Of a stretch of DNA of 64,000 bases, positions 31,379 to 37,881 are shown in pieces. A program made the translations under genes and the position numbers. Under the pieces are notes generated by a model that did not search any database, was not told where the DNA came from, and worked only from the letters and a program-made list of their open reading frames with translations. How positions within the stretch are numbered: position 1 is the stretch's first letter; each line of letters begins with the position of its first letter. Source of the stretch: Halorubrum yunnanense (GTDB lineage Archaea; Halobacteriota; Halobacteria; Halobacteriales; Haloferacaceae); the NCBI RefSeq assembly GCF_026586675.1, contig NZ_JAODIX010000007.1, positions 1-64,000 on the forward strand, given 5' to 3'.

Positions 31379-32086
31379 GTGAGCGATCCGATCCCGACCG
31401 GCTGTCGGCCGGTCGACGACCTGTTGGGCGGCGGATTCGAGCGCGGAGTCGTCACGCAGGTGTACGGCCCGCCCGCAGCCGGGAAGACGAACCTCGCGCT
31501 GGCCGCGGCCGTCGAGGTCGCCGGCGGGGGCGACCGGGCCCTCTACATTGACACTGAGGGGCTCTCCATCGACCGGTTCGAGCAGCTGGCCGCGGGACGC
31601 GCTGACGACCCCGACGTCGACGACACGGTCGAGGAGATCGCGTCGCGGCTGGTGATCTCCGAGGCGTACGACTTCGACGACCAGCGGGAGGCGGTCCGCG
31701 ACGCCGAGGAGCTCGCCGCGGAGGTCGATCTGATCGTGTTGGACTCCGCGACGGGCTTCTACCGACTTGAGCGCGCGGGCGACACCGAGGGCGGCGAGTC
31801 GCTCCGGAAGGTCGCCAAGCAGGTGACGCATCTCCTCTCGTTGGCCCGCCGCCACGATCTGGCCGTCGTGATCACGAACCAGGTGTTCACCGACCCCGAC
31901 TCCGACCGCGACCGCGCGCTCGGGGGCAACACGCTGAATCACTGGACCGGCGCAATCGTCCGCGTCGACCGCTTCCGTGGCGGGAACCGGCGAGCCACGC
32001 TGGAGAAACACCGTTCGAAGCCCGCCGGCGACTCCGCCACCTTCCGGATCGTCGCCGACGGGCTGGCGGAGGGCGGAGACGCGTAG
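31379..32086 (+). CDS. radB: DNA repair and recombination protein RadB
   Basis: 235 aa, shorter than RadA because the N-terminal HhH domain is absent. Walker A VYGPPAAGKTNLAL and Walker B DLIVLDSATGFYR are intact, preceded by IPTGCRPVDDLLGGGFERGVV, the typical RadB start. C-terminal KHRSKPAGDSATFRI matches archaeal RadB. It is a RecA-family paralogue that assists RadA in homologous recombination. GTG start, supported by a TATA box. Confidence 0.92.
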   Translation: MSDPIPTGCRPVDDLLGGGFERGVVTQVYGPPAAGKTNLALAAAVEVAGGGDRALYIDTEGLSIDRFEQLAAGRADDPDVDDTVEEIASRLVISEAYDFDDQREAVRDAEELAAEVDLIVLDSATGFYRLERAGDTEGGESLRKVAKQVTHLLSLARRHDLAVVITNQVFTDPDSDRDRALGGNTLNHWTGAIVRVDRFRGGNRRATLEKHRSKPAGDSATFRIVADGLAEGGDA

Positions 32087-32251: not shown

Positions 32252-35200
32252 ATGAGCGATCGGGCGAGTCGGCTCGGACGAGCGACCGTCCTGCTCGTAG
32301 TTGCGTGCGTCCTCGTTTCGGGGGTTGCCCCGGCGGTGATGGCCGGCGGTCTCGGCGGCGCGGGACCCGGTGAGGGCGACGCCGTCTCGTCACAGCCGTC
32401 CGACGCGGTCGCGACGGCCAGCGGTTCCGGGGCGCCCGACGCCGTCGGTACCGGGCTGCGATCGGCGACCGGCACCGTCGAGGTCGTCGTGCGCTTCGAG
32501 GGCGACGCCGAGTTCGGACCACGGGCCGCCAGCAACGGGGAAGGAATGTCGACTGCCGACCTCAAGTCGAGCGCCGAGAGCGCGCAGGGCGACTTCGAGC
32601 GCTTCGCAGAGCGGAAGCCCGGCGTCACGGTCGAGCGGAGCTTCTGGCTCGCGAACGCGATGCTCGTCACGGTCGACACCGAGAGCGTCGCGGTCGAACG
32701 CCTCCTCGACGTGCGCGGCGTCGAACGCGTCCACGAGAACTTCCGGGTCGAACTCGACTCAGCGGCGGGAGCTGGCGGCGGAGGCGGCGACAGTGAAACT
32801 GCGGTCGGCGCTCCCAGTCCTGTCGCCGGTCCCACAGCCGGGGCCGTCTCGGCGAGCTCGACGTCGGCGAACGCGACATACGGCGTCGAGATGGTCCGGG
32901 CGCCCGAAGTCTGGGAGGAGTTCGACACGAGGGGCGCGGGCGCGACGGTCGCGGTACTGGACACCGGGATCGATCCGAATCATCCGGACCTCACCGTGAG
33001 CGGGTGGGCGGAGTACGATGCGGAGGGAAACCTGGTGAGTGACGATGTCTCAGATGCGTCTGACGTCAACGGCCACGGCACCCACGTCGCGGGGACCGTC
33101 GCCGGCGGGAACGCGAGCGGGACGGCGATCGGTGTCGCCCCGGAGGCGGACCTGTACGGCGTGAAGGTGTTGGGCGACGACGGGACCGGCAGCTTCGCGC
33201 AGGTCGTCGCGGGAATGGAGTACGCAACGGACAACACGAGCGCGGACGTGCTTCAGATGAGCCTCGGCGCTCAGGGGTACGAGAGCGGATTCATCGAGCC
33301 GGTCCAGAACGCTCGGAGTACCGGGAAGGTCGTGGTCGCCTCGGCCGGAAACAGCGGGAGCGGGGCGTCGAGCTCGCCCGGGAACGTGTACGATTCGTTC
33401 GCCGTGGGTGCCGTCGACGCCAACCGCGACGTCGCCTCTTTCTCCGGGGGCGAGACGCTGAACACGAGCGCGGACTGGAACGACACGAACGGGACGGCGG
33501 AGTGGCCGGCGGAGTACGTCGTTCCCGACGCGTCGGCGCCGGGCGTAGACGTCAACTCCTCACTATCGGGCGGCGGATACGGATTGAAGGACGGAACCTC
33601 CATGGCCGCGCCCCACGTCTCCGGCGTGGCGGCGCTGGTGCTCTCGTCGACGTCGCGGAACGTCTCCGACGATGAGCTCTACGACGCGATCAGGAGTACC
33701 GCGAACCACCCGAAGAACAATTCTACCGCCGACACCCGGTACGGAACCGGGATCGTCGACGCCTACGCGGCCGTCTCGTCGACGGAGCCGTCCTACGACG
33801 TGTCCGATCTCGGCTCGCCCCCGATCGTCGAGCGGAACGGGACGATCGACGCCACGGCAACCGTGACGAACGCGGGGCGGATACCCGGCGAGAACCGCAC
33901 CGTCGAACTCCGACTGACAGATCCGGCGAACGAGAGCGACGTACGCGAACTGGCCGCGACGAACGTCTCACTCGGCGTCGATAACGCCACGACCGTCGCG
34001 CTCGACGGGACCGTTCCGAGCGACTTCGGAACCGGCGAGACGGCAGTCGCGCTCGCCACGCCCGAGGGGACGGTTAACGCGACGGCCCGAGTCGCCGACG
34101 CGGTCGGCACGGTGAACGGCACCGTCACCGACGCGGAGACGAACGCGACCCTCTCCGCCGTCGACGTGGTTGTCCGAAACGGCACCGAGACGGTCGCAGA
34201 GACGACGACCGGCGAGAGCGGAAGCTACGACGTCGACGTCCCGGCGACCAGTCTCACCGCCACCGCGAGCAACGCGACGTACGCGCCCGCCAACGAGACG
34301 GTCGATCTGAACGGTTCCGGCGACGCCGCCACCGCGAACTTCTCGCTGACGCTCCGAAACGGGACGCTCGCCGGGTTCGTGAACGCGAGCGACGACCTCG
34401 GCCGCCCGTCGAACGCGACGGTGACTGTCACGAACGAGACGAACGCGACCGTCGCCGCTGTCGACGCGGCGGATGACGGGTCGTACGCGATCGATCTCCG
34501 ACCCGGGTCGTACGACGTCACCGCGGAGGCGCCTGACTTCCTCCCAGACGCGCGAGCCGGCCTGACGGTCGATCCGAACGCGACTACGGATCCGGAACTC
34601 GTACTCGATCCGAAAGCGGCGACGCTCTCCGGAACGGTGACGAACGAGAGCAGCGGCGACCCGGTCGCCGGCGCGACGGTGACCGCCGGATCGGCCTCGA
34701 CCGACACCGGAACCGATGGGAACTACTCGGTCACGGTCGATCGCGGCGATCGGACGCTGGCAGTCTCGGCGGCCGGCTACAACGAGTCGTCGCGGACGCT
34801 CGACCTCGCGGCGAACGAGTCGCGCGAGGCGGACGTCCCGCTGACCCCGACGGCGGTGTTCGCGGTTGCCTCGATCTCCGGGCCGAACGAGATCGAACAG
34901 GGGTCGAGCGGCGAGTTCACGATCGAGGTCCGCAACGACGGCAGAGCGGCCGGGACCGTCACCGCGATCGCAGCCGTCTCGCCGAGCGGAACGGTCGACC
35001 CGGCGTCGCAGTCGTTCTCGGGCGTCGCGGTCGGTGCGACTCGATCGGCGACTGTGATGGTCTCGCTCGGGGACGGCGCGTCGACCGAGAAGCACGAGTT
35101 CACCGCCTCGATCGAGAGCGGCGACGACGCTCAAACGCGTTCGTTCGACGCGGTCAGTGGCGGAGATAACGATGATGAGAACACGGACGACGGGGGCAGT

Positions 35201-35626
35201 GGCGGCGGCGGGGGAGCCGGAGGCGGCGGAGGAACTGGGGGCGGCGGCTCCACCGTCTCAGACGGCGAAGCGGAGACGACGGAACCGACCAACGAGACGG
35301 ACGACCCCACGAACGAGACGACGGAACCGACCAACGAGACGACGGAACCGACCAACGAGACGGACGACATCGCGAACGGGACGGCGGAGCCGACCGACGA
35401 GGGAGAGCCAGTCGACGACGAGCCGACGGCTGACGACGCGGACGGGTCTGACGAGAGCGACGGTGTGAGCGGATCCGACGGCGTCGAAGCAGACGAAAAC
35501 GGCGACACGGCTGCGCCCGACGACGACACCTCCGACGACGAGGCGCCGGGCTTCGGGGTGATCGCGGGCGTCGCCGCGTTGCTGTCAGCGGCGCTGGTCG
35601 CGCGGCTGCGCGGAGGAACCGGCTGA
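32252..35626 (+). CDS. Large subtilisin-like protease with repeat domains and PGF-CTERM anchor
   Basis: 1124 aa. N-terminal signal peptide without twin-arginine (LGRATVLLVVACVLVSGVAP), inhibitor-like prodomain (about 70-170), then a subtilase domain with Asp237 (VAVLDTGID), His275 (NGHGTHVAGT) and Ser450 (GTSMAAPHVSG). The second half carries several carboxypeptidase-regulatory-like/CARDB-type beta domains, many N-x-T/S sequons, and an acidic stalk with repeated EPTNETTE units near 35275-35370. The C-terminus EAPGFGVIAGVAALLSAALV plus Arg is a PGF-CTERM signal for archaeosortase and lipid anchoring. Surface-attached, probably processing or degrading extracellular proteins. TTAAG 27 nt upstream of ATG. 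Confidence 0.88.
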   Translation: MSDRASRLGRATVLLVVACVLVSGVAPAVMAGGLGGAGPGEGDAVSSQPSDAVATASGSGAPDAVGTGLRSATGTVEVVVRFEGDAEFGPRAASNGEGMSTADLKSSAESAQGDFERFAERKPGVTVERSFWLANAMLVTVDTESVAVERLLDVRGVERVHENFRVELDSAAGAGGGGGDSETAVGAPSPVAGPTAGAVSASSTSANATYGVEMVRAPEVWEEFDTRGAGATVAVLDTGIDPNHPDLTVSGWAEYDAEGNLVSDDVSDASDVNGHGTHVAGTVAGGNASGTAIGVAPEADLYGVKVLGDDGTGSFAQVVAGMEYATDNTSADVLQMSLGAQGYESGFIEPVQNARSTGKVVVASAGNSGSGASSSPGNVYDSFAVGAVDANRDVASFSGGETLNTSADWNDTNGTAEWPAEYVVPDASAPGVDVNSSLSGGGYGLKDGTSMAAPHVSGVAALVLSSTSRNVSDDELYDAIRSTANHPKNNSTADTRYGTGIVDAYAAVSSTEPSYDVSDLGSPPIVERNGTIDATATVTNAGRIPGENRTVELRLTDPANESDVRELAATNVSLGVDNATTVALDGTVPSDFGTGETAVALATPEGTVNATARVADAVGTVNGTVTDAETNATLSAVDVVVRNGTETVAETTTGESGSYDVDVPATSLTATASNATYAPANETVDLNGSGDAATANFSLTLRNGTLAGFVNASDDLGRPSNATVTVTNETNATVAAVDAADDGSYAIDLRPGSYDVTAEAPDFLPDARAGLTVDPNATTDPELVLDPKAATLSGTVTNESSGDPVAGATVTAGSASTDTGTDGNYSVTVDRGDRTLAVSAAGYNESSRTLDLAANESREADVPLTPTAVFAVASISGPNEIEQGSSGEFTIEVRNDGRAAGTVTAIAAVSPSGTVDPASQSFSGVAVGATRSATVMVSLGDGASTEKHEFTASIESGDDAQTRSFDAVSGGDNDDENTDDGGSGGGGGAGGGGGTGGGGSTVSDGEAETTEPTNETDDPTNETTEPTNETTEPTNETDDIANGTAEPTDEGEPVDDEPTADDADGSDESDGVSGSDGVEADENGDTAAPDDDTSDDEAPGFGVIAGVAALLSAALVARLRGGTG

Positions 35627-35687: not shown

Positions 35688-36827
35688 TCACAGCTGGCCG
35701 AGCTTGCGGAGCAGCTGGCCGCGGTACTCCTCGTCCGCGTTGACGCCTTTGATCTCTAAGACGTTGCGCTCCAGCTTGTCGAGCGCGACGTGGAAGGCGT
35801 GTTCGGCGCCGTACCCCTCGCCGGAGCCGCCGACCTGACCCTCGTTGGTTCGGAGGCGGATCTGACACTGGATCAGGGGCGTGCCGCGGAGCTTCTCCTT
35901 GTGTGCGTGGAGGCGGACGTGCGCGTGGATGACGCGCATGTCCGCGTACTTGTTCACGACCTGTTCGATGGACTCGATGATGTGCTCCCGCGAGGTGGTG
36001 TCCAGCAGGTCGACGTTGGTGATCTGGACGTCCATCGAGTCCTCCTCGGTGAACGTGAGCGCGCGGAGGACGTCGGTCTTCGTCACCATCCCGGCGACGG
36101 TGTCGGCCCCGTCCGGCGTGACGACGAGCCCCGAGATGTCGTTGTCGAACATGCGCTGGACGACGCCCTGCGCGGTCTCGTCGGCGGTCGCGGTGACGAC
36201 GGGACTCGACATGATGTCGTAGACGGGGATGTCGAGCATCCGGTCGATGTCGCCGGCCCGGTCGCCGCTCCCCTGTCGCTCGTGGTCCCGGACGACGAAC
36301 TCGACGATGTCGTTGGTGGTGACGACGCCGACCAGCTGGCCGTCCTCGTCGAGGGCCGGGAGCCGGGAGATCCCGTTCTCGCGGAGGAGGTTGATCGCGC
36401 GGCCGACGGTGTCCTTGTCGTTGATCCCGATGACGTCCTCCGTCGCGATCTGCCCGACGGTGATCGCGTCGAGGCTGTCGAGGACGGCCTCGAGGATCTG
36501 GTCGACCGTGACGATGCCGTAGAGCTTCTCGCCCTCGTAGACGGGAGCGATCTTCACGTCGCCCTCGACGAGGAGGCGGGCCGTCTCCCGCACGTCCTCG
36601 TGGCGGTCGACGGAGGGCGCGGGCTTCATGACGGCCGACACCTTCGTGTCGTCCTCCATGCGCGAGCGCATGAGCTGTTTCTCTCCGACTACGCCGGCGT
36701 ACTCGCCGTCCTCGGTGACGACGATCCCCTTCGGATTCTCGCGCTCGAAGATGGACCGGACCTTGGCGAGTCGCTCATCGACGTCGACCTCGACGTACTC
36801 CGGCACCGCGATATCAACAATATTCAT
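35688..36827 (-). CDS. Four-CBS protein with C-terminal ribosome-hibernation-factor-like domain
   Basis: 379 aa. CBS motifs at about 10-60, 67-115, 124-178 and 203-260 form two Bateman pairs that normally bind AMP, ATP or SAM. Residues 265-361 (VQITNVDLLDTTSREHIIES..., HAHVRLHAHKEK, and FHVALDKLERNVLEIKG) follow the beta-alpha-beta-beta-beta-alpha order of HPF/RaiA (S30AE) proteins, ending in the same ALDKLER helix. I infer a nucleotide-sensing ribosome-binding protein; annotation as plain CBS protein is the conservative alternative. ATG 36827; the longer frame to 37364 is noise. Confidence 0.75.
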   Translation of the reverse strand: MNIVDIAVPEYVEVDVDERLAKVRSIFERENPKGIVVTEDGEYAGVVGEKQLMRSRMEDDTKVSAVMKPAPSVDRHEDVRETARLLVEGDVKIAPVYEGEKLYGIVTVDQILEAVLDSLDAITVGQIATEDVIGINDKDTVGRAINLLRENGISRLPALDEDGQLVGVVTTNDIVEFVVRDHERQGSGDRAGDIDRMLDIPVYDIMSSPVVTATADETAQGVVQRMFDNDISGLVVTPDGADTVAGMVTKTDVLRALTFTEEDSMDVQITNVDLLDTTSREHIIESIEQVVNKYADMRVIHAHVRLHAHKEKLRGTPLIQCQIRLRTNEGQVGGSGEGYGAEHAFHVALDKLERNVLEIKGVNADEEYRGQLLRKLGQL

Positions 36828-37191
36828 GGTCCAGCCTGCGAGTTCGTCGCGCCGGGTATTGAAAGTGCGGGAGGCGTCTCCGCCGATGGGATCGCCGTCG
36901 TCGCAGCGAACGCCCCTGATCCCGGTTGCGTTCGGGCGACGAAAAGGGGGCGCGAGACCCCCCACGGCGCCGACCACGACCGGCCCCCTACACGTCGCGG
37001 TTCCGCTCCCGATTCCGTGCGTCGGCCTGACCGGCGGGACGCTCGTCCGGACAGTCGATATCGTACGCAGGCCGCTCGGCGCGTGAGGCCGCGCAGACCG
37101 CCGCCGGGTCGGAACGGGGAGTCGCAACGAGGGGCCAGAGCCGCGTTGTGCCGGTGAAAGCTTTTTGACGGCTACCCACGGAGGGGGACTC

Positions 37192-37881
37192 GTGTACGAC
37201 GCCGTCGTTCTCGACAAAGACGGGGTGCTCGTCGGGCGGACGCCGTTCGACACGCTCCGCGAGGCCGCCTGGGACGCGTTCGTGAGCCTCGGCGTCGAGG
37301 ACCCCGACCTGGCCCACGTCGACGACGTCGCCGTCGGCGTCGACCCCGCGACGCTGACCGACATCTGCGAGCGCTACGGGCTGGAGCCGGCAGAGTTCTG
37401 GCGCGTCCGCGACGAGATGGCCGCGACCGCCCAGGTCGACGCGGCCCGGAAGGGGCGGAAGACGCCGTACGAGGACGTCGACGCGCTCCGATTTATCGAC
37501 GCCCCCCTCGGCGTGGTCTCCTCGAACCAGCAGGCGACCGTCGACGCCGTGCTGGACCTCTTCGACCTCGCCGGGCGGTTCGAGGTCGCGTACGGCCGAG
37601 ACCCGTCGATCGCCAGCCTCTCGCGGAAGAAGCCCTCGCCGTACTACCTCGAACGCGCCCTGGAGGACCTCGGCGCCGAGACCGCGCTGTTCGTCGGCGA
37701 CAACGAGTCCGACGTGCGCGCCGCCGACAACGCCGGCATCGACTCGGCGTTCGTCCGGCGCCCGCACCGCCGCTCCGCGGAGCTCTCCTGCCAGCCGACC
37801 TACGAGATCGACGACCTCCACGACCTCGTGAGCATCTGCGGGCGGGCGCCCGTGAACCCGGACTCGGGCGACCGCGTCTGA
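37192..37881 (+). CDS. HAD-family hydrolase (phosphoglycolate phosphatase-like)
   Basis: 229 aa. Motif I AVVLDKDGVLVGRTPFD (the nucleophile Asp within DKDG), motif II GVVSSNQQATVDAV (Ser), motif III Lys in SRKKPSPYYLERAL, and motif IV FVGDNESDVRAADNAGI are all present, with an alpha-helical C1 cap between I and II. Probably a small-molecule phosphatase of unknown substrate. GTG 37192 is taken as start (M-YDAVVLDKDG); the upstream in-frame TTG is less likely. The following 460 bp is IS debris. Confidence 0.85.
   Translation: MYDAVVLDKDGVLVGRTPFDTLREAAWDAFVSLGVEDPDLAHVDDVAVGVDPATLTDICERYGLEPAEFWRVRDEMAATAQVDAARKGRKTPYEDVDALRFIDAPLGVVSSNQQATVDAVLDLFDLAGRFEVAYGRDPSIASLSRKKPSPYYLERALEDLGAETALFVGDNESDVRAADNAGIDSAFVRRPHRRSAELSCQPTYEIDDLHDLVSICGRAPVNPDSGDRV

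Follow-up and report, generated by a model that had tools for sequence, protein, structure and literature searches.

The HibA family of archaeal ribosome hibernation factors, in which four CBS domains are followed by a C-terminal HPF/RaiA domain, was published in April 2026 (PMC13324472). In Pyrococcus abyssi, where HibA is the protein Pab0961, the C-terminal domain binds in the mRNA channel of the 30S subunit and the CBS module takes up three positions over the 50S tRNA sites; HibA also inhibits translation in extract, and deletion of hibA in T. barophilus leaves about 60% less 70S in stationary phase (PMC13324472). The demonstrations of 30S/70S binding, translation inhibition and preservation of 70S in stationary phase by HibA come from Thermococcales only (PMC13324472). 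Among haloarchaea, HVO_2384 of Haloferax volcanii was described in 2025 as a protein with tandem CBS domains and a ribosome hibernation factor domain, and was found co-purifying with a Pat2 variant (PMC12607858). Ribosome-bound four-CBS modules are also represented by Dri of Pyrobaculum calidifontis (9e6q) and by SriA-D of Methanosarcina (9znf, 9zng, 9zni), which were matched by the protein studied here by sequence and fold. Unlike that protein, Dri and SriA-D carry no HPF/RaiA domain; as Dri consists of two four-CBS modules (PMC13324472) rather than one such module plus HPF/RaiA, the gene described below was not classed as Dri. Bacterial HPF/RaiA/YfiA proteins and chloroplast pY, on the other hand, share the fold of the HibA C-terminal domain but have no CBS module.

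The window analyzed here is a stretch of 64,000 nucleotides from Halorubrum yunnanense. It contains a reading frame that starts with ATG, begins MNIVDIAVPEYV and comprises 379 codons plus a stop codon (Table 1). This frame stays open upstream to position 37364; as the homologues begin at the ATG used here, and a conserved promoter-like block lies 37 nt before it, this ATG was taken as the start. An overlapping plus-strand open reading frame (35790-37157, 455 aa) was rejected as a gene, as it looks like an artefact of high G+C content. Overall, we are highly confident that the product is haloarchaeal HibA, i.e., a ribosome hibernation factor, and that it is a Halorubrum member of the core clade defined below.

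Table 1. Features of the hibA locus and its surroundings (positions in the window).
Feature	Position	Strand	Description
radB	31379..32086	+	recombination mediator, Rad51/RecA family; conserved convergent neighbour of hibA
Subtilase gene	32252..35626	+	1124 aa, carboxypeptidase-regulatory-like repeats; between radB and hibA
hibA	35688..36827	-	core haloarchaeal clade; 379 aa, four CBS domains plus HPF/RaiA domain
CBS1	36660..36827	-	residues about 1-56; degenerate nucleotide motif GVVGEKQ
CBS2	36477..36647	-	residues about 61-117; motif without the conserved final Asp
CBS3	36291..36458	-	residues 124-179; GVVTTND; invariant Asp173, counterpart of P. abyssi Asp181
PTC loop counterpart	36231..36284	-	residues 182-199, HERQGSGDRAGDIDRMLD; length equal to P. 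abyssi 190-207
CBS4	36054..36230	-	residues about 200-258; GMVTKTD; invariant Asp252, counterpart of P. abyssi Asp259
HPF/RaiA (S30AE) domain	35691..36044	-	residues 262-379; profile, PDB sequence matches and predicted fold
Promoter-like element	36852..36864	-	TTTCAATACCCGG, conserved, at about -37 of hibA; once in the genome even with one mismatch

This identification is carried by comparisons with ribosome-bound chains of the same architecture. When the full protein was compared to PDB sequences with phmmer, it matched 9l96_a (E 1.5e-71) and 9sr9_H (E 3.9e-48, residues 4-376), both of which are ribosome-bound chains with four CBS domains and an HPF/RaiA domain; the C-terminal domain alone also matched both (5.2e-19 and 1.7e-8, respectively). 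We took 9sr9 chain H to be P. abyssi HibA, as its length of 392 residues and its domain boundaries agree with those given in PMC13324472. P. abyssi HibA aligns from end to end with the Halorubrum protein and shows the same domain order, the same Asp motifs in CBS3 and CBS4 and the same 18-aa length of the PTC loop, and invariant C-terminal domain residues such as Glu311, Arg314, Gly315, Gly336, Glu337, Gly340, Ala344 and Arg354 are common to the two. The identity between these two proteins is, however, only 32% (over 371 positions), and the top-scoring solved chain, 9l96_a, falls into an accessory clade, whereas the gene in the window belongs to the core clade. Chain 9l96_a, a CBS domain-containing ribosome chain of 406 aa, is 40% identical to the window protein and shares its architecture, but has a PTC loop of about 43 residues and a CBS1 motif with T/S-R-R. 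Proteins of Haloferax species other than H. volcanii, the source of HVO_2384, are 66-69% identical to the window protein over its full length.

Profile searches gave a consistent picture of the domain layout. The four CBS stretches of the N-terminal part scored 128.2 bits (E 1.4e-37, Pfam), and the secondary structure of the AlphaFold model agrees with them. With the S30AE profile (PF02482), the whole sequence reached 23.0 bits, slightly less than the Pfam cut-off of 23.7, and residues 262-379 alone reached 25.6 bits, i.e., over the cut-off. Sequence similarity to the bacterial family is weak: the bacterial HPF model TIGR00741 (NCBI) reached 20.3 bits on the C-terminal domain, well below its cut-off of 40.9, which indicates that this domain is HPF-like and not a member of the bacterial HPF equivalog. 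A sequence-only reading of this DNA had described four CBS domains followed by an HPF/RaiA-like domain at these coordinates, and Pfam, the AlphaFold model, Foldseek and VIA-align all agree with it on these points. The C-terminal domain, which that reading put at about 97 residues, is in fact some 20 residues longer (about 118), since the last helix reaches the C-terminus in the AlphaFold models. The novelty that the reading implied fails; the CBS-HPF/RaiA fusion is the published HibA family (PMC13324472), and HVO_2384 had been described before (PMC12607858). The fusion was nevertheless correctly recognised by eye, and its characterisation dates only from 2026. PADLOC did not match the hibA gene and thus gave no sign of an anti-phage function, and a PHROGs search with the C-terminal domain returned only weak matches of unknown function and no phage family.

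Because two ribosome-bound chains with this domain layout are homologous to Halorubrum HibA, ribosome binding by the latter is a well-supported prediction. Translation inhibition, 70S preservation and a preference for AMP, as well as ribosome binding itself, are properties that we infer for haloarchaeal HibA by analogy with P. abyssi and T. barophilus. When cells are resting or under stress, the HPF/RaiA domain would occupy the 30S mRNA channel and decoding region while the four-CBS module would fill tRNA sites left vacant on the 50S subunit, and the short loop between CBS3 and CBS4 may be able to enter the peptidyl transferase centre. Such an arrangement would block translation reversibly and protect 70S from degradation. 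The CBS3/CBS4 site would probably hold one AMP, ADP or ATP, and the adenylate may bring about release or the binding of a partner such as RadB.

Of the 292 genomes of the class, 291 have the C-terminal domain, and all 77 genera are represented among them. At 17 positions of this domain, the residue kept by at least 95% of the core sequences is also that of P. abyssi HibA and the majority residue in the accessory clade. Such occurrence and conservation lie far beyond chance. One genome (G128) gave only a weak C-terminal domain match, and another (G130) gave none although it is about 96% complete. In the genome from which the window was taken, the other CBS matches stop short of the HPF part, so that hibA is present in one copy. 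A PF02482 search of this genome for a stand-alone HPF found nothing over the cut-off and one weak place with 12.7 bits, a weak negative, as hibA itself was also unreported. Among 116 sampled genomes, about a third (38) showed more than one match to the C-terminal half of the 9l96 type. The tree of these proteins splits cleanly into a core clade (support 99/98) and an accessory clade (96/96) that includes 9l96; as the P. abyssi outgroup sits on a very long branch, the position of the root is uncertain, and with it the relative age of the two clades. The PTC loop is 18 aa long in each of the 78 core sequences, just as it is in P. abyssi, as compared to 33-43 Gly/Ser-rich residues in the accessory clade, which also differs from the core clade in its C-terminal tail. 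Accessory genes (L039-L068) are distributed patchily in Halobacteria; in one genome (G049, locus L047) the accessory gene adjoins the core gene, and in another (G021) the single HibA (C101:30271-30792) is accessory-like. As HibA is near-universal in Halobacteria and single-copy in the genome studied here, and as Haloferax volcanii is easy to manipulate, haloarchaea offer a good test ground for the family.

The conserved part of the CBS module lies in its second half. Asp173 in CBS3 and Asp252 in CBS4 are invariant in the core (78/78) and accessory (30/30) sequences and also occur in P. abyssi. The nucleotide motifs of CBS1 and CBS2 are degenerate in Halorubrum HibA; for example, the CBS1 motif GVVGEKQ stands in place of GVLTQDL in P. 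abyssi. P. abyssi HibA binds one AMP at the CBS3/CBS4 interface with a Kd of 12 µM, as compared to 65 µM for ADP and 113 µM for ATP, and does not bind GMP or GTP (PMC13324472). As the two aspartates are invariant and the P. abyssi orthologue binds AMP at this place, the sequence comparison makes it likely that Halorubrum HibA has one adenylate site, at CBS3/CBS4, and that it binds AMP. That adenylate gates hibernation is a hypothesis. On P. abyssi ribosomes, however, AMP and ATP caused no clear change in HibA binding or conformations, except for a weak additional state with ATP (PMC13324472), which leaves an energy link unproven.

A switch of this kind, in which AMP promotes and ATP prevents ribosome binding and translation is tied directly to energy charge, would fit the invariant aspartates, the tighter binding of AMP than of ADP or ATP, and the resemblance of the CBS part to AMPK gamma; in a fold search with the full-length AlphaFold model (pLDDT 78.6), this part matched Methanosarcina SriA/B, SriD, MJ1225 and Dri as well as AMPK gamma. 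Cellular ATP, on the other hand, usually far exceeds the Kd values of P. abyssi HibA, and AMP and ATP had no clear effect on binding to P. abyssi ribosomes; we consider the switch rather unlikely. The sequence-only reading had proposed that a single protein senses AMP/ATP and binds ribosomes, thereby linking energy state directly to hibernation; its ribosome-binding part is well supported and adenylate binding is likely, but the direct link is not supported by the P. abyssi results.

A second function of haloarchaeal HibA may be reflected in its genomic neighbourhood. The positions of both core hibA and radB were available for 110 haloarchaeal genomes. The two genes converge at a distance of less than 2 kb in 70 of these and within 6 kb in 79, and they lie within 20 kb of each other, in any orientation, in 94; the chance expectation for the last count is about 1%, although the genomes share ancestry. 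The linkage is looser in one family (f3), where the two genes mostly lie 6-20 kb apart in another orientation or at a greater distance, and in a few others. In Haloferax, radB is HVO_2383 and thus numerically adjacent to HVO_2384, and while radB is the conserved neighbour of haloarchaeal hibA, GINS23 is found nearby in Pyrococcus. No mention of the haloarchaeal radB-hibA pair was found in the passages of the literature that were consulted. With regard to the other neighbours, 11 of 67 related loci gave a match to a subtilase related to the one in the window. An HAD-family hydrolase gene (37165-37881, plus strand), divergent from hibA, has a match in 37 of the 67, which comprise nearly all Halorubrum loci, and was not matched in the flanks of hibA in most other genera.

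These observations could mean that haloarchaeal HibA mainly or additionally regulates homologous recombination and replication, binding RadB (and RadA) according to adenylate level, with the ribosome role second or derived. Pab0961 co-purified with RadB, and HVO_2384 is said, on the strength of a personal communication, to interact physically with RadA and RadB (both in PMC3820547); recombination and replication partners have also been mentioned as possible sequestering factors for HibA (PMC13324472). These reports of an association with RadB, and with replication proteins (PMC3820547), suggest that HibA may have functions in addition to hibernation and speak against a pure hibernation role. 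However, convergent neighbours are not co-transcribed, synteny inside one class reflects shared ancestry and not many independent events, and the linkage itself is loosened in some lineages. Moreover, affinity purifications often contain proteins that are abundant or associated with RNA, and the HPF domain and the ribosome-bound structures favour the ribosome role, so that we consider a primary or parallel recombination function unlikely. It is quite improbable, albeit conceivable, that haloarchaeal HibA serves two clients, i.e., ribosomes and RadB (with RadA), chosen by the adenylate-binding CBS module, and that the long-loop clade is a separately regulated, ribosome-only version; if this were true, one protein would coordinate translation shutdown with the restart of recombination or replication. 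Two questions carried over from PMC13324472, the purpose of AMP/ATP binding and the reason for the association of HibA with RadB and replication proteins, are testable in haloarchaea, and the conserved radB-hibA pair and the second, long-loop HibA clade provide concrete handles on them.

The identification as HibA, a ribosome hibernation factor, is further borne out by the fold of the C-terminal domain. An AlphaFold model of this domain was made blind and then compared to the PDB by Foldseek and VIA-align. The best Foldseek matches (4.5e-6, probability 1.00) were to HPF/RaiA/pY structures, led by chloroplast pY, mycobacterial RafH, Listeria HPF, YfiA and E. coli HPF, and all 21 matches with E ≤ 0.001 belong to the HPF/RaiA family. 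VIA-align gave Z scores of 12.8 to V. cholerae HPF (89 residues, 2.0 Å) and 12.7 to E. coli HPF; HPF/RaiA chains aligned with 87-112 residues of the domain. HPF/RaiA thus came out on top and no unrelated fold was found, in line with the earlier assignment. That the domain is dsRBD-like, or another unrelated alpha/beta domain merely resembling HPF, is extremely improbable and is already refuted by profile, sequence and fold results: dsRBD chains do occur lower in the fold lists (VIA Z about 7-8, at most 8.0, as compared to 8.0-12.8 across HPF/RaiA-type chains), but HPF/RaiA chains are clearly first, S30AE is over its Pfam cut-off and the solved HibA chains align by sequence.

An exact copy of the element TTTCAATACCCGG lies upstream of hibA, amid otherwise divergent sequence, in 47 of the 78 core loci, nearly all Halorubrum loci among them. 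A search for a regulon in the genome found none: hibA has the only copy of the 13-mer, and CTTTCAAKA, its shorter core, was no commoner than the reversed control (4 vs 5). The pentamer TTCAA is present about 20 to 55 nt upstream in every core locus, as compared to 1 of 29 accessory loci, and in other Haloferacaceae TTCAA(G/T) stands at a similar position upstream of hibA. The conserved element probably represents the BRE/TATA region or an operator.
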